A stretch of 44,570 nucleotides of DNA from Maribacter sp. (lineage in GTDB: Bacteria > Bacteroidota > Bacteroidia > Flavobacteriales > Flavobacteriaceae). A model generated the notes under the pieces. The model was not told where the DNA came from. It did no database searches and saw only the letters and a list, made by a program, of their open reading frames with translations. Position numbers and translations under genes: made by a program. Location of the stretch: NCBI GenBank assembly GCA_024643345.1, contig JAHENB010000024.1, positions 1 to 44,570 on the forward strand. The letters are read 5' to 3'. Each line of letters starts with the position of its first letter. The first letter of the stretch is position 1. Shown here in pieces: positions 7,630 through 33,653 of the stretch.

Positions 7630-8691
7630 CTATAAATCCAGTTTCCCCAAACCTGGAGTATCGATTGGGTAAAGAATTCCCTTTTTTAGATGGAACATTC
7701 CTGCCGTAGGGTCATTGGCAATTTCTAAATGGCCATCGAGGTCGGCATACTTAATATTGGGCCGCGAAAGCGAAAAATGAAGCCCCGCGGAGATTCCCAA
7801 GGCACATTCATCGATGCAGCCCACCATGGCCTCTAAATTTGCGGCCTTGGCCACCGAATTGATGTGCATGCCCTCTAGGATGCCCCCGACCTTCATGAGC
7901 TTGATGTTGATCATGTTTACCCTTTCGTTTCGGGCAAGACGAAACATATCTTTTAAGGTTTTAAGGCTTTCATCGGCCATGACCGGAATTTTGGTGTTTT
8001 GGGTGACCTTCCCCAACTTTTTCTCTTTCCCGACCTTGGTGGGCTGCTCGAAAATTTCGATGCCTATGGCACTGGTGGCCTCAAAAAAGGCCAAGGCTTG
8101 GGCCACCGAATACCCTTGGTTCCCGTCAAAGCGCAGTTTTAGTTGGGGAAAGGTCGCATGAATCCGAAGCATTTTAGTGATATCTTCCTCCACATTGCTC
8201 CCCCCCTTGATCTTCAAAATGCCAAAGCCCTGACGCACCATATCTTTGGCCTGCCTCAGGGTCTCCTCTACCGATAAAATACCAATGGTAATGCTCGTAG
8301 GGATGCTGTTTCGGTACCCGCCCAAATATTTGTACAAAGGCACCCCTGCCTTTTTAGAGATCAAATCGTGCAGGGCCATGTCTACCATGGCCAGCGTCGA
8401 GGAAGCGGTGGGGAGCAATCGCTTGATCTCTTGCAATAAAAATGCGTATTGGAATGGATCCTTGCCCTTTAAAAAAGGTACGATCAGGTCTTTGATCATC
8501 GCTTCCACCTGATCCGGAGTTTCCAAGGTCACCGTTAGATCGGGTGCCGAACAACCATAACCGACCATGGAAGCATCGGTCTCCACCTTCAGTATAAAAT
8601 TGGTGGTTTTGCTTATCGTTTCGTAAGCAATTGTATAGGGCACCGTCAACTGAAGGTCGAGCCGCTCATAGGAAATTTTGGTGATTTTCAT
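7630..8691 (-). CDS. dgcA: Enolase-superfamily racemase: N-acetyl-D-glutamate racemase (DgcA-type) or L-Ala-D/L-Glu epimerase
   Basis: This 353-residue enolase-superfamily enzyme belongs to the dipeptide epimerase branch of the mandelate racemase group. The catalytic set is visible: KIKGG (Lys160 and Lys162), metal ligands in RFDGNQGY (Asp189), FEQP (Glu215) and MADES (Asp240), and the second-face lysine in NIKLMKVGG (Lys264 or Lys267). Such proteins are usually annotated L-Ala-D/L-Glu epimerase (murein peptide recycling). When they follow a DUF1611 protein, as here with a 4-bp overlap (8688-8691), the family has been described as DgcA, which racemises N-acetyl-D-glutamate to the L form. The overlap with the DUF1611 gene favours DgcA. 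The dipeptide epimerase role remains open because specificity residues cannot be settled by eye. It is the last gene of a three-gene operon. Confidence 0.8.
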   Translation of the reverse strand: MKITKISYERLDLQLTVPYTIAYETISKTTNFILKVETDASMVGYGCSAPDLTVTLETPDQVEAMIKDLIVPFLKGKDPFQYAFLLQEIKRLLPTASSTLAMVDMALHDLISKKAGVPLYKYLGGYRNSIPTSITIGILSVEETLRQAKDMVRQGFGILKIKGGSNVEEDITKMLRIHATFPQLKLRFDGNQGYSVAQALAFFEATSAIGIEIFEQPTKVGKEKKLGKVTQNTKIPVMADESLKTLKDMFRLARNERVNMINIKLMKVGGILEGMHINSVAKAANLEAMVGCIDECALGISAGLHFSLSRPNIKYADLDGHLEIANDPTAGMFHLKKGILYPIDTPGLGKLDL

Positions 8692-9761
8692 TTAATCTTG
8701 GCCTTCAAGAGTTCGATCAGCGGTGCCGCCCCGTGGGCCAGTACATCATAAGCAGGCAAACCGGTCTCTTTGGTGATGGCCCTGCAGGCCGGAAGAATTT
8801 CCTCCTGTGCCATGTCTTCATGGTTGACCGTAACGGCAACCACTTTTTTTCCGGAAATCACTTCAATGGCCCTTATCTGTTCGGGCAGCGAATGTAATTT
8901 ATAGCCTGGAAAACCATCATACTCCACCCGTTTTGGCGCATGTTGCAAGATCACATAATCGGGCCGGCCAGCGGCCAAGATTTCGAACCCTCCCGGATAG
9001 GCCGGGTTCATTAAGCTGCCTTGGCCTTCAATGACGATGACATCTGGACTTTCATTTTTATAGGCACTCACCACGGCATGCTCGATCTCTCCCGAAACAA
9101 AATCGTTGATACAACTGTCGAGGATCATACTGTACTTGGCGCCCTGCATCCAAGCGGTCTGCCCGGTGCCGATCATTTCGGCCTTGAGTCCGGCAGTCCT
9201 GAAGCCATGTACCAAGATCCAAGCGGTGGTGCGCTTGCCCAGGGCCGAGTCGGTCCCCAAAACGGCCAACTTAAGGCAATCGACCTTTTCGATCTCGCCC
9301 GTAAAGAAATGCAATTGGTCCCGGTCAGGGGTTTTGCGCACGTCCCTGATCTTCACATCATGGGCTTTGGCAAGTGCGGTTAGGGACGGGTCGTTGGTCA
9401 AAAAATCGTGCAGGCCACTGTCAACGTTCCATCCTTTGGAAAGGGCCTCTTTGATGGTCTCCTTGGCCTTGATCGGCAAGCGACCCCCATCCGGAGCGAG
9501 CCCAACCACAAAATATTGCGGCAATCGGGCGGTCTTTGTCAAATGCTCGATGGCATCGGCAATATCCTCAAAAATGGGAATCCCATTGGCCTTTCCATCG
9601 AGCACCATCCCGGCATCCTGCCCGGCATAATGACTATCAATCAGCCCCACAACTTGGTAACGTTCGGTAAAGCGAACCAGGCCGTGGGCCGTTTTTCCAT
9701 TGGGGGTGTTGAAGGCATCTTGGCAATAGACCAAGGCTTTGCCGTCTATCGTTTTTTTCAT
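8688..9761 (-). CDS. dgcN: DUF1611 protein, D-glutamate N-acetyltransferase (DgcN-type)
   Basis: This 357-residue protein has the two-part DUF1611 architecture. A Rossmann-like N domain (about residues 1-130) is followed by a P-loop-like domain containing GTDSALGKRTT (residues 169-179) and later VIEGQGSLMNPAYPGG. The family was long uncharacterised and is now described as D-glutamate N-acetyltransferase DgcN, which acts with the racemase DgcA in a D-glutamate catabolic route. The 4-bp overlap with the downstream enolase-superfamily gene is the arrangement expected for that pair. The upstream PLP-enzyme gene ends only 12 bp before its ATG, so all three are probably one transcript. No signal peptide is present, so it acts in the cytoplasm. 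Family membership is clear; the reaction is inferred from the family and the partner gene. Confidence 0.82.
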   Translation of the reverse strand: MKKTIDGKALVYCQDAFNTPNGKTAHGLVRFTERYQVVGLIDSHYAGQDAGMVLDGKANGIPIFEDIADAIEHLTKTARLPQYFVVGLAPDGGRLPIKAKETIKEALSKGWNVDSGLHDFLTNDPSLTALAKAHDVKIRDVRKTPDRDQLHFFTGEIEKVDCLKLAVLGTDSALGKRTTAWILVHGFRTAGLKAEMIGTGQTAWMQGAKYSMILDSCINDFVSGEIEHAVVSAYKNESPDVIVIEGQGSLMNPAYPGGFEILAAGRPDYVILQHAPKRVEYDGFPGYKLHSLPEQIRAIEVISGKKVVAVTVNHEDMAQEEILPACRAITKETGLPAYDVLAHGAAPLIELLKAKIK

Positions 9762-9773
9762 GTTTAAGTGGTT

Positions 9774-10835
9774 TTATTGTTTTGCCGTTAAGACCGCTAC
9801 AAAACGATCGGGTTCGAAATTCAATTCTTCATCCAGTTCCAATAAGGCTATGAGCCCCGCCGTAGCAGCGGGAAGAATCAAAAATCCTTCCTGTTTCGCC
9901 AAAAGACTGGTCATCGACTTTAATTTTTTGTCGCTGATATTAAATGCACTTCCCTCTGATTCCCTTAAGGCATATAGGGCTTCCTCCCCATCAAAACTGT
10001 GCCAATTGATCAGCGGCTCGTTATATTTGGTCTCCTTGATGGCCTCCGGATTCAGGTCTTTGCAATGATCCAATCCCAAAAGGAACGATTGCACAATGGG
10101 ATTTTTTCGGGTCGAAGAGGCAGCGATCATTTTTGGGATCCTCGAGGTCTTGCCCCTTTTGTAAAGGTTCACAAAGCCCCTATAGATACCGGCGAACAAG
10201 GTACCATTGGAAACTGGAACGGCACAATATTTCGGGGCATCGCCCAAATCTTCATAGATTTCCAAAGCGATCTGGGAATAGGCGGTAATCTGCAATGGGG
10301 TGTTCAATCCTCCGGGATTGGCATCGTACCAGTCGTTTTGTTTCGCAAGGGCACTGCTCGCCACCACGACCTCTTCATAGGTTCCCGGCAAGCGGATGAT
10401 CTCCGCTTCCAAGCGTTCCATTTCGGCGATGCGATCGGTATGGTACGTTTCGGGGATATAGATCTTACAATGTACGCCTGCCAACAGGGCCGCCAGTGCC
10501 ACGGCCACGCCGTAATTTCCACAGGTGGCCAAGGAAACCACCTCATACTCCCTCCTCAGGGCATCGTAGACCTGGGCAAAGGCGATCCGGTCTTTCTGGG
10601 TGCCTGTGGGATTGTCGCCCTCATACTTGATGTAGAGCTGGCGGATCCCAAAGCTGCGCTCGAGCGTCTTCGCGCGGTTGAGGCCGGTGTCGCCCACTTC
10701 GAGGTTGATGATGTCTTCAAAATATTCGAGCCTGTCTACCATTGACTTGCCAGTATCTTTGACCAATAGGCTCAATTCCAGGGCTTCCGGGGAAACCTTA
10801 TTTTCTGCAGTTCGAACACCGTCTCTTAAGTACAT
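9774..10835 (-). CDS. Threonine-synthase-like PLP-dependent enzyme
   Basis: This 353-residue fold-type II PLP enzyme is related to threonine synthase and diaminopropionate/cysteate-type enzymes. The Schiff-base lysine is Lys81 in DNPTGTQKDR, the equivalent of NPTGSFKDRG in threonine synthase. The cofactor-binding Asn/Gly loop appears as LATCGNYGVAVALA (about 103-116), and a later AVPVSNGTLFAGIYRGF block also fits. It lacks the zinc-ribbon or long N-terminal extension of true threonine synthases. It is the first gene of an operon with the DgcN- and DgcA-type genes, 12 bp upstream of the former. Context therefore suggests a role in D-glutamate or peptidoglycan amino acid metabolism and not threonine synthesis. 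Its substrate is unknown; a lyase, racemase or beta-replacement reaction are all possible. Confidence 0.75.
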   Translation of the reverse strand: MYLRDGVRTAENKVSPEALELSLLVKDTGKSMVDRLEYFEDIINLEVGDTGLNRAKTLERSFGIRQLYIKYEGDNPTGTQKDRIAFAQVYDALRREYEVVSLATCGNYGVAVALAALLAGVHCKIYIPETYHTDRIAEMERLEAEIIRLPGTYEEVVVASSALAKQNDWYDANPGGLNTPLQITAYSQIALEIYEDLGDAPKYCAVPVSNGTLFAGIYRGFVNLYKRGKTSRIPKMIAASSTRKNPIVQSFLLGLDHCKDLNPEAIKETKYNEPLINWHSFDGEEALYALRESEGSAFNISDKKLKSMTSLLAKQEGFLILPAATAGLIALLELDEELNFEPDRFVAVLTAKQ

Positions 10836-10998
10836 CTAAACTTTCGTGATTCTGTTTTTAATATAGGGTTTTTGGTCCGATAAAGATAATAAGCCCAAAG
10901 TTAATTCCTTTAAAGTCATGCTTTTTTCGCAATGTGCGCAATGCAGATCAACGGCCGGTTGAACAAACAACAAGGATGTTGCCATTGAAATGGCAGAT

Positions 10999-11014
10999 TT
11001 TCGGCCGGCCGAAA
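10999..11014. promoter_or_regulatory. Perfect 16-bp palindrome in a divergent intergenic region
   Basis: TTTCGGCCGGCCGAAA is a perfect dyad without spacer. It sits in the 259-bp gap between the divergently transcribed PLP/dgcN/dgcA operon and the Tat-exported isomerase gene, about 80 bp before the latter. Position and symmetry fit an operator for a dimeric regulator, but no regulator gene is adjacent, so the assignment is only a suggestion. Confidence 0.3.
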
Positions 11015-11094
11015 TAAATCATTACCTTAGAAGGGCCAACATAAATTTTACATTAACGATCGAATAGATCAAATAAAACTAAAACCAAGATAGC

Positions 11095-12087
11095 ATGACC
11101 CATAAAATTTCCAGAAGAAAAGCGATCGGCACCAGTATCAAGGCTTCCTTGGCGGCCCTAGGAGGCTATGCCTTTACAACTCACATGCCCACTTCGCAGT
11201 CGCACCATACCATTGAACCAAAGAAGAAACTGCCCTTTAGGATCAGTTTGAACACTTCTACACTTCTTCATTACAAATTGGATGTGGACGCGCAGATCGA
11301 CATGGTCGCCGACGCAGGGTTCGACGGCATCGAATTGTGGATGAGCGATGTAAAGGCCTATTTGGCAAAAGGGGGCAGTCTTGAAACCCTGAAAGAAAAG
11401 TTGCAGTCCAGACAACTGGTTCTGGAAGACATGATCGGCTTCGCCAAATGGTGCAGTGATGATCCCAAGGAGCGAAAAGCGGCCATTGACCAATTGCGCG
11501 AAGAAATGAACATCACCGCTGGCCTGGGCGGAAAATACATAGCCGCTCCCATCATGGGGCTCGAAACCTTGGAGTGCCCAAAATTCAATGATTATGTTGA
11601 AAGGTACAATGCGATTTTATTACTGGGCGATGAAACCGGGGTCACCCCGCTCCTTGAACTTTGGGGCATGGGCGCCCTGCACAGACTGGCCGATTGCGCG
11701 CAGATCGTCATCGCCACGGGGCATCCCAAGGCGACCATATTGTTGGACTTTTACCATATTTATCGGGGCGGGAACGATTGGGACACGGTAGACTGCCTCA
11801 ACGGGAAGCGGTTGCCGGTAATCCATATGAACGATTATCCCAGTAGTCCGGCCAGGGAATTGCTGAAAGATTCCGACCGCACCTTCCCCGGGGAGGGCAT
11901 CTGTGATTTCGGACACGCCATTCCCAAATTGTACGATGCGGGCTTTAGGGGCGGTTTTTCGGTGGAACTCTTCAACAAGGGTTATTGGGAAACTATGGAC
12001 GCCAAAACCATTTTGAAAAACAGTTATGAAAAGACCTATGAAGTAGTGGAAAAGGCATTGGCAAATATCGATTATGAACCGGGTTAA
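11095..12087 (+). CDS. Tat-exported sugar phosphate isomerase/epimerase-like TIM barrel
   Basis: This 330-residue protein is of the xylose isomerase-like TIM-barrel family (AP endonuclease 2 superfamily). The barrel starts near FRISLNTSTLLHYKLDVDAQ and shows the typical ADAGFDGIELWM strand. Metal-ligand-like positions occur in LLELWGMG, LLDFYHIYRGG, VIHMNDYP and FSVELFN. Residues 1-35 start MTHKISRRKAIGTSIKAS and contain an RRKAIG twin-arginine-like motif and a hydrophobic stretch, so export through Tat to the periplasm is likely. Proteins of this kind in Bacteroidota act on sugars or inositols, but the substrate cannot be read from the sequence. It is divergent from the dgc operon and followed by decayed sequence. 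Confidence 0.82.
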   Translation: MTHKISRRKAIGTSIKASLAALGGYAFTTHMPTSQSHHTIEPKKKLPFRISLNTSTLLHYKLDVDAQIDMVADAGFDGIELWMSDVKAYLAKGGSLETLKEKLQSRQLVLEDMIGFAKWCSDDPKERKAAIDQLREEMNITAGLGGKYIAAPIMGLETLECPKFNDYVERYNAILLLGDETGVTPLLELWGMGALHRLADCAQIVIATGHPKATILLDFYHIYRGGNDWDTVDCLNGKRLPVIHMNDYPSSPARELLKDSDRTFPGEGICDFGHAIPKLYDAGFRGGFSVELFNKGYWETMDAKTILKNSYEKTYEVVEKALANIDYEPG

Positions 12088-31810: not shown

Positions 31811-32686
31811 ATGAAATTAGTAGTATTGTCGGCAAATCCTAACCTGTATTCCACAAAAAGACTGGTAGAGGCCGGCAAAAAGAAAGGGCATGAAATGCAT
31901 GTGGTAGACCATACCAAATGCGATTTGGTCATTGAAAAAAAGAAACCGGGCATTGTATACAAAGAGTTGGAAATATCCGATGTGAACGGGGTAATCCCAA
32001 GGATCGGGGCTTCGGTCACTTTTTTCGGAACTGCCGTGGTAAGACAGTTCGAAATGATGAAAATTTTCACCGCCACCGAATCCCAGGCCCTGGTAAGGTC
32101 AAGGGATAAATTGAGAAGCTTACAGATCCTGTCGAGGGCCGGACTCGGGCTTCCCAAGACCGTATTCAGCAACTATTCTAAAAATGTGGGGGGCATTATC
32201 GATAAAGTTGGGGGCGCACCTTTGGTCATTAAACTTTTGGAAGGCACCCAAGGGCTTGGGGTGGTCCTTGCCGATAACAGAAATTCGGCCGAATCGATAT
32301 TGGAGGCGTTCAATGGCCTGCAGGCACGGGTAATCGTACAAGAATACATCAAAGAAGCAAAAGGGGCCGATATCCGTGCTTTTATTGTCGATGGCGTAGT
32401 CGTTGGGGCCATGAAAAGACAGGGTAAAGAAGGTGAATTCAGGTCTAATCTGCATCGTGGGGGATCGGCCAACATCATTGAACTTACCGATGAGGAAGAA
32501 AATGCGGCCTTAAAAGCGGCCAAGGTAATGGGTTTGGGCATAGCGGGGGTAGACCTCCTGCAATCGGCCAGGGGACCCTTGATCCTTGAAGTAAATTCCT
32601 CTCCGGGCCTTGAAGGAATAGAAACCGCCACTGGAAAGGATATCGCCGGACATATCATCAAATATGTGGAGCGCAATGCCGAATAA
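31811..32686 (+). CDS. RimK-like ATP-grasp ligase
   Basis: This 291-residue protein belongs to the RimK branch of the ATP-grasp family, which adds Glu to the C terminus of ribosomal protein S6 or, in relatives, forms other peptide or amide bonds. It starts with the RimK-type N domain ([20 protein letters not shown]). The ATP-grasp core shows [36 protein letters not shown], the RSNLHRGG loop and the metal-binding [13 protein letters not shown]. The canonical E. coli RimK is 300 residues, so the length is full. The downstream deacylase gene overlaps its end by 11 bp. Its target is not necessarily S6: the paired deacylase suggests a reversible modification of a small molecule or protein tail. 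Confidence 0.9.
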
Positions 32687-33653
32687 AACCATTGAAATCC
32701 TTGGAACCCCCATCAAGCCCGGAAAAAGCTATCGGCTTACCCTGAACATCGCCAAGCTGCATACCCGATCCAATATTGAAATTCCGATCATCGTGTCCCG
32801 TGGCAAGGTCGACGGGCCCAGTATTCTGTTGACCGGGGGAATACACGGCAATGAGATCAACGGAGTTGAAATTGTTCGAAGTATCATTATTGGAAAATAC
32901 CATAAACCCTCAAAGGGGATGGTCATCTGTATTCCCGTGGTAAATGTTTTTGGATTTATCAACCAAACTAGGCAATTTCCCGACGGAAGGGACCTGAACC
33001 GGGTCTTCCCAGGAAATAACAGAGGTTCGCTCGCCAGCCGATTTGCCTATTATATCATGAAAGAGATCATCCCGCATATCGACTATGGGATCGATTATCA
33101 TACCGGGGGAAATGCCCGTTTTAATATCGCACAAATTCGTATGGATCCAAAAAATAAGGAATGCCTTCAATTGGCCCGTATCTTTGGAGCACCTTTCATA
33201 TTGGAGTCCAAAAACAAGGAAAATACCTTCAGGGACGTTTGTGTCAAAAAAGGAAAAACCATATTGCTTTTTGAAGGTGGAAAATCGATGTTTTCCGATG
33301 ATCAAATCACGGCCTATGGGGTCGCCGGAGCGCTTAGGGTAATGCACCATTTGGGGGTTCGTGATTTTCAAAAGGAATTATCCGATGTTAAATATCTACA
33401 AAAAGAATCCATTCTTTTGGAGTCATCCCGATGGGTCAGGGCAACCTACTCAGGGATGTACAGGCCAAATGTTGGCTTGGGCGACTACGTCGAAAAAGGG
33501 GAAGTCATCGCCAGCATTTCGGATCCCTTTGGGGATTTTGAAAAATTCATCAAAGCGCGAAGTCCGGGCTATGTGATCTGTGTGAATCATTCGCCCATCG
33601 TGAATCAAGGGGATGCCATTTTGCATATTTCACAAAAAGCATCAAAGCGCTAA
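32676..33653 (+). CDS. Succinylglutamate desuccinylase/aspartoacylase-family (M14-like) deacylase
   Basis: This zinc-dependent hydrolase of about 325 residues belongs to the AstE/AspA family (M14 peptidase fold). Zinc ligands and catalytic elements are visible: [13 protein letters not shown] (His57, Glu60), [13 protein letters not shown] (Arg105/Arg109), and GIDYHTGG (His142). The C-terminal beta hairpin contains [19 protein letters not shown]. Family members cleave N-acyl-amino acids such as N-acetylaspartate or N-succinylglutamate. The ATG at 32676 overlaps the preceding ATP-grasp gene by 11 bp; a second ATG at 32664 is possible. The pairing of a RimK-like ligase with such a hydrolase is recurrent in bacteria and suggests that one forms and the other removes an amide-linked group. 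Confidence 0.88.

Follow-up and report, generated by a model that had tools for sequence, protein, structure and literature searches.

What do three closely spaced genes do when family models name their products a threonine synthase, a DgcN-like DUF1611 protein and a dipeptide epimerase? The question is raised by contig JAHENB010000024.1 of Maribacter sp. (assembly GCA_024643345.1), of which positions 1 to 44,570 are referred to here as the window. Transcription on its minus strand runs from a fold-type II pyridoxal 5'-phosphate (PLP) enzyme (gene 1) through a DUF1611 protein (gene 2) to an enolase-superfamily epimerase (gene 3), with 12 bp between genes 1 and 2 and a 4-bp overlap of genes 2 and 3. 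An earlier note on this DNA gave the same gap and overlap, together with the motif DNPTGTQKDR in gene 1, and the coordinates bear it out; it took genes 2 and 3 for DgcN and DgcA, the D-glutamate (D-Glu) pathway credited to Yu et al. (2023, ISME J 17:537; excerpts of PMC12363236 and PMC10845958). The reading preferred here, to which we give a probability of about 0.4, is that the trio forms the core of a Bacteroidota module that would change the alpha-carbon configuration of a basic (diamino or guanidino) amino acid, handled as a dipeptide or N-acyl derivative. The substrate of this module is a prediction, and the module may work in either direction.

The three genes co-occur far above chance, and their grouping is genuine. 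Two samples were used, comprising 120 genomes of the family (probably Flavobacteriaceae) and 395 of the phylum Bacteroidota. Seven of the 120 family genomes, the same seven for each protein, encode close orthologues (identity of at least 79% for the PLP enzyme, 75% for DUF1611 and 67% for the epimerase); the exact coincidence of two such sets has p = 1.7e-11, uncorrected for kinship. The trio is a single gene run in all seven and directly adjacent in six; in genome G037, two extra genes lie between DUF1611 and the epimerase, and the PLP gene is split across two contigs. Twenty phylum genomes carry the PLP enzyme (at least 56% identity) and the identical 20 a matching DUF1611 (at least 60%), a 29% match to the PLP enzyme in G453 having been left out of the count. 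A scan of named genomes returned 409 stretches encoding the PLP enzyme; the best 80 of these are the 80 loci on which later counts are based. Within the fetched DNA, DUF1611 is present in 78 of them and the epimerase in 69, and 50 have the three-gene form only. Among the 25 operons mapped, that of the window included, L128 and L129 have the PLP gene in divergent orientation to its two partners. The earlier note had described an operon of three genes and had proposed scoring their co-occurrence; done here, that comparison finds them together (7/7 family genomes, 20/20 phylum genomes and the 80 loci) rather than rarely so, and the description holds. In genome G018, of the same genus, the PLP enzyme and DUF1611 both went unmatched at the thresholds applied, and the unit is therefore accessory. 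No plasmid copy of the PLP enzyme was matched at 1e-30.

Is gene 1 a threonine synthase? The motif DNPTGTQKDR occupies residues 74-83, and the Schiff-base Lys81 in NPTGTQKDR was assigned by homology. Gene 1 scores 397.4 bits on NF004996 (PRK06381, 'threonine synthase'), above the cut-off of 266, and 94.7 bits on TIGR00260 (thrC), below the cut-off of 167.1. Threonine synthases are the top fold matches of its predicted structure (predicted local distance difference test, pLDDT, 87.2). The Arg of the threonine synthase NPxRxEGQ motif, which we take to contact the substrate phosphate, is replaced by Gln182, aligned with the Arg of 2zsj and 1uim and invariant in 20 aligned rows (of 25 PLP enzymes). 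In addition, a separate ThrC is encoded on contig C12 of the same genome (283 bits, above cut-off). We conclude from these comparisons that gene 1 is a threonine-synthase paralogue predicted to act on a different substrate.

Are genes 2 and 3, then, a DgcN/DgcA pair? Gene 2 scores 149.5 bits on DgcN (NF041892, cut-off 480), its sole NCBIfam match, and gene 3 scores 141.8 bits on DgcA (NF042940, cut-off 400). The best NCBIfam match of gene 3 is the Thermotoga L-Ala-D/L-Glu epimerase model A_G_epim_Thtga, at 243.7 bits and likewise below cut-off (500). A tree of 60 DUF1611 rows gathers the 25 from the operon into a single group (81/90), which supported branches separate from the distant Pantoea DgcN. 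A DUF1611 core of 27 columns is kept in at least 93% of the 60 rows; Pantoea DgcN has its K23, G175, K176, E245, G246 and Q247, with Tyr at T178, and has one of the 31 positions that are kept in at least 96% of operon DUF1611 proteins and at most 25% of the others. Of the 47 rows in the epimerase tree and alignment, the 23 from the operon are likewise united in a single clade (96/94) that is remote from both Pantoea DgcA and E. coli YcjG; details on the DgcA/YcjG side are unsure because of the long branches there. Gene 3 has the catalytic lysines (K160/K162, K264/K267), the metal ligands (D189/E215/D240) and the DxD motif (D317-L-D319), all retained in the 23/23 operon epimerases compared. At site 23 these 23 enzymes, gene 3 among them, have Tyr. 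Arg is found there in Pantoea DgcA, YcjG, the genome's own second epimerase and 6/6 group C enzymes (L070-L074, L142). Pairs nearer to DgcN/DgcA occur elsewhere in family genomes: L070, L071 and L073 prefer these models (208-237 bits on DgcN, 179-194 on DgcA), yet remain below cut-off, and the PLP gene of the operon does not adjoin them. The DgcN/DgcA assignment was rejected on model scores, trees and residues. Both this naming and the D-Glu substrate, as proposed in the earlier note, are probably wrong for the operon, and its placing of the PLP enzyme outside the two-step DgcN/DgcA route agrees with our results.

What, instead, might gene 3 accept? Site 24 is Glu in 22 operon epimerases and Gln in one; B. 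subtilis 1jpm has Arg there, presumably the holder of the Glu side chain. Site 51 is Asp in all 23, and in one of 21 other DUF1611-linked epimerases (L150). Among structures and reference enzymes, it is Glu in 3rit (L-Arg-D-Lys complex), Asp in 2p88 (N-succinyl-Arg/Lys racemase), Thr in 1jpm, 3r0k and DgcA, Gly in 3jva and Tyr in YcjG. A basic substrate is suggested because D51 matches an acid in both Arg/Lys-type structures, and because D294 of gene 3 is common to 3rit, which is also the top fold match, slightly ahead of an almost level 1jpm (2p88 comes fourteenth).

The partners of DUF1611 elsewhere bear on the same point. Fifty-six further loci, chosen from search rankings and not at random, were scanned and 55 mapped, one being without DUF1611. 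An enolase-type epimerase is the partner in 33 of the 55, an alanine/ornithine-racemase-like gene in seven and lysine-biosynthesis-type genes, downstream on the same strand, in nine, whereas six have none of these. A stereochemical role is suggested because of the 33 epimerase and seven racemase-like partners; to this extent the tie to amino-acid stereochemistry and the partnership of DUF1611 with an epimerase, both put forward in the earlier note, are upheld. A basic substrate is further suggested because nine of the 15 loci without a racemase have genes for LysA, aspartokinase and/or aspartate-semialdehyde dehydrogenase (Asd) downstream of the DUF1611 gene.

This lysine-gene-linked branch (L158-L161 and L272-L276, on the same strand, in other Bacteroidota) is possibly an unrecognised step or control of lysine/diaminopimelate synthesis; lysA, aspartokinase and the dehydrogenase of L161 lie above NCBIfam cut-offs, and the other eight loci were called by similarity to L161. 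The alanine/ornithine-racemase-like neighbour is found in L180, L181 and L182 (Vibrio and Ruegeria plasmids), L067-L069 and L148, its ornithine type being called from L067 (Orr, 388 bits, below the cut-off of 480) and from the annotation of the Vibrio and Ruegeria plasmids. HflK/HflC genes lie near the pair in two of the three plasmids L180-L182. DUF1611/epimerase relatives are also found near D-aminoacylase-like amidohydrolases (L150, L152, L154, L155, L286 and L183). The last, a plasmid of the haloarchaeon Haladaptatus, encodes a D-aminoacylase, a dipeptide epimerase, DUF1611, a second dipeptide epimerase, a small gene and a serine hydrolase. In Pantoea, a peptide-type ABC transporter and a P1 peptidase come after the annotated dgcN-dgcA genes.

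In the favoured module, the PLP enzyme would use beta/gamma chemistry of the threonine-synthase type to make or break the amino acid, its substrate carrying no phosphate. An acyl group transferred by DUF1611 would cap the alpha-amine, much as the name of DgcN implies for D-Glu, and the enolase-superfamily enzyme would next remove and return the alpha-proton through its lysines.

Some operons are longer. In 11 of the 25 mapped, two further genes, or one fusion, follow DUF1611: a PP-loop protein of about 507 residues with SGGKDS (SGGKES in L140) and CGxCxKC motifs, and a creatininase-family hydrolase of about 266 residues, joined in six of the 11 as one protein of 780-802 residues. The epimerase is present in 23 of the 25 mapped operons; none stands beside L140, and L141 stops soon after the fusion gene. 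Among the 80 loci, PP-loop and creatininase genes occur together in 23 and singly in none. The PP-loop half was found in ten of the 395 phylum genomes, always at this operon; the remaining matches to the PP-loop/creatininase query fall in its creatininase part, none starting before residue 492. Likewise, the 15 matches listed from 374 plasmid records start at residue 463 or later, essentially in the creatininase part. A profile search of the PDB with the PP-loop protein gave three weak matches only (best E 0.056). The MurL model NF041275 is remotely matched by ten of the 11 PP-loop proteins (best E 9.9e-6) and QueC by six. MurL converts peptidyl L-Glu to D-Glu in one direction, with ATP used and AMP formed (excerpts of PMC8788868 and PMC5808125). 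In the longer operons, a MurL-like enzyme may use ATP to activate or epimerise the carboxylate in one direction only, and the amide may be cleaved by the creatininase-type hydrolase. The window genome carries the short form, without the PP-loop enzyme; PP-loop and creatininase queries gave one match elsewhere in it, a distant creatininase (30%) on contig C16. A fuller picture, which we consider rather doubtful, is a pathway that would set or clear the D-configuration in a basic amino acid. Besides the threonine-synthase paralogue and a DUF1611 acyltransferase, it would use two epimerases: one of MurL type, ATP-driven and one-way, that adjoins a creatininase-type amidase or is fused to it, and one of the enolase superfamily that is reversible. 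Its minimal form, of three enzymes, would be that of the window, and the pathway would serve to build or to break down a marine D-amino-acid metabolite that is not part of peptidoglycan.

Several observations weigh against the preferred module. Support for the operon DUF1611 group is only 81/90, and the acyltransferase activity of this branch is putative. No epimerase is near in 11 of the 80 loci, and a contig end explains only three of these: L201 and L244 end inside DUF1611, and L239 ends just past the creatininase gene. The others are L234, L236, L237 and L240 (Muriicola/Eudoraea), L250, L255, L259 and L260. The specificity argument is one of alignment columns. Position 294 is Val in 2p88, not Asp; Ala takes the place of D51 in the four rows of family f30, the nearest relatives; and sequence profiles rank 1jpm, an L-Ala-D/L-Glu epimerase, before 3jva, 3rit and 2p88. 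Loss of Arg at position 24 proves little, because 3rit keeps Arg24 despite its cationic substrate, and dipeptide and N-acyl substrates are not separable, because DxD is also present in DgcA. The MurL match is remote; for example, the PP-loop protein of L063 scores 19.7 bits on NF041275 against a cut-off of 700.

The main rival in direction, which overlaps the favoured module in mechanism, is biosynthesis of a small D-amino-acid metabolite: the PLP enzyme would build an unusual amino acid, DUF1611 would acylate it, the D centre would be the work of the MurL-like enzyme and the epimerase, and an amide would be trimmed or opened by the creatininase. The invariable pairing of PP-loop and creatininase (23/23 loci, fused in 6/11 mapped), the one-way L-to-D, ATP-dependent epimerisation by MurL (PMC8788868, in excerpt) and a patchy distribution in which same-genus G018 is without the unit all fit. 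However, 50 of the 80 close relatives have the three-gene form only, and nothing in the 19 neighbour families looked up was recognisable as an exporter, a carrier protein or a tailoring gene (one is an ABC ATPase; smaller families lie outside). We consider this rival somewhat unlikely. Recycling of cell-wall peptides, with the epimerase acting on a murein-derived dipeptide and the other two enzymes handling the freed amino acids, is less probable still. It would accord with the dipeptide-epimerase model as best NCBIfam match (243.7 bits) and 1jpm as best profile match, with the divergent Beta-lactamase2 serine hydrolases upstream in 16 of the 80 loci and with the D-aminoacylase-like neighbours of DUF1611/epimerase relatives. 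Nevertheless, a second epimerase, with the Glu-type Arg that the window enzyme lacks, is already encoded elsewhere in the genome (C17), and the Beta-lactamase2 neighbour, seen at Maribacter/Saonia loci, is not the upstream gene of the operon in the window.

We regard as equally improbable the extended DgcN/DgcA route of the earlier note, in which DUF1611 would N-acetylate D-Glu, N-acetyl-Glu would be racemised and the PLP enzyme would take a product. The same two superfamilies adjoin in both cases, DgcN is the only NCBIfam match of gene 2, Pantoea DgcN retains DUF1611 core residues and the catalytic residues of the epimerase are kept; but both scores fall far under the equivalog cut-offs, the clades are apart, DgcN has 1/31 of the operon-specific DUF1611 positions, Arg23 of DgcA and YcjG is Tyr, and the nearer pairs elsewhere in the family do not adjoin the PLP gene. 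Least credible is a plain second threonine synthase beside a chance neighbour pair. Although NF004996 (397 bits, cut-off 266) and the fold matches speak for it, linkage in 20/20 genomes of several families, the TIGR00260 score (94.7 < 167.1), Gln182 in place of Arg in 20/20 aligned rows and the ThrC on C12 speak against it, and we rejected gene 1 as a plain threonine synthase.

Table 1. Coordinates of the operon, of the region upstream and of the fusion gene in longer operons (window positions unless a locus is named)
Feature	Position	Strand	Length (residues)	Remarks
Gene 1, fold-type II PLP enzyme, threonine-synthase-like	9774-10835	-	353	Pfam PALP 190.4 bits
Gene 2, DUF1611 protein	8688-9761	-	357	N-terminal Rossmann-like and C-terminal P-loop domain (GTDSALGKRTT)
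Gene 3, dipeptide-epimerase-like enolase-superfamily enzyme	7630-8691	-	353	Y23/E24, C47, D51, D294
Intergenic region upstream of gene 1	10836-11094			Common to the operon and the divergent gene at 11095
PP-loop/creatininase fusion	L135:9238-11592		~784	Also in L136-L138, L140, L141

The region upstream of the operon holds a GC-rich perfect 16-bp palindrome, TTTCGGCCGGCCGAAA, at 10999-11014 and a related inverted match at 10952-10963; together they are a possible operator. Promoter and terminator scans of the region upstream of gene 1 gave matches no more frequent than in shuffles, and no RNA family was matched in the window at gathering score. Downstream, 76 of the 80 loci show a following gene, on the opposite strand in 51 and on the same strand in 25. 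The commonest same-strand gene is a CitMHS-type transporter (five loci), the only transporter directly after the operon on that strand among the 19 neighbour families looked up in Pfam, with many smaller families outside. The scavenging route envisaged in the earlier note thus finds little support. Neighbour families include glycoside hydrolases, a Met-zincin, a kelch protein, KDPG aldolase, a ROK protein, an ABC ATPase and Beta-lactamase2, and three of the 19 are without a Pfam match; none of those looked up reveals the pathway. The Beta-lactamase2-family serine hydrolase lies divergently upstream at L187:4830-5735 and in 15 more loci, mostly of Maribacter, with one of Saonia (L238). The second, Glu-type epimerase of the window genome (L075, contig C17 of G000) scores 232 bits on the DgcA model (cut-off 400). 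Its gene and that of a BioF/AONS-like PLP protein (102 bits on bioF, cut-off 426) overlap by 4 bp, the two occupying L075:7165-8178 and L075:8175-9224. Elsewhere in the window, at 31811-33653, a RimK (S6--L-glutamate ligase) gene (365 bits, cut-off 331) overlaps by 23 bp a gene whose sole NCBIfam match is the N-acetyl-diaminobutanoate deacetylase DoeB (96.5 bits, cut-off 403).

The names given by family models (threonine synthase, DgcN-like DUF1611, dipeptide epimerase) mask a single unit in Maribacter, Zobellia, Muricauda, Saprospiraceae and others. If the preferred module is correct, a DUF1611 branch would be tied to basic D-amino acids, the D-glutamate pathway would not be over-extended, and a MurL-like ATP-dependent enzyme would operate outside peptidoglycan synthesis. 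In the open-licence literature, no description of the pathway was found. Within the titles and excerpts of that literature, DUF1611 did not appear together with an epimerase and was itself present only in Dickeya work, by title, while a combination of at least two among dipeptide epimerase, creatininase and threonine synthase appeared only in Xanthomonas genomics.

How does the unit compare with known systems? It shares with DgcN/DgcA a DUF1611 gene beside an enolase-superfamily racemase, with core and catalytic residues in common, but differs in clades, sub-cut-off scores, side-chain-site residues and the added PLP gene, and in 11/25 mapped operons in the PP-loop/creatininase pair. The PP-loop proteins of relatives resemble MurL by remote profile match (10/11), yet fall far under its equivalog cut-off, and the window genome has no PP-loop match. 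Gene 1 has the fold of the PRK06381 threonine synthase group (NF004996) and exceeds its curated cut-off, whereas it has Gln for the motif Arg in a genome with a further ThrC. With the dipeptide epimerases 3rit (Methylococcus) and 1jpm, gene 3 shares 36% full-length identity, catalytic lysines, metal ligands and DxD; in contrast, of the 47 rows compared only those from the operon combine Y23, E24, C47 and D51, one of them with Q24 instead. The N-succinyl-Arg/Lys racemase 2p88 (Bacillus cereus) shares Asp51 and, by its PDB title, racemises an N-acylated basic amino acid. It differs in overall sequence (28% identity) and in having E-L-T where gene 3 has DxD, and its partner acyltransferase is, we assume, of a different kind.

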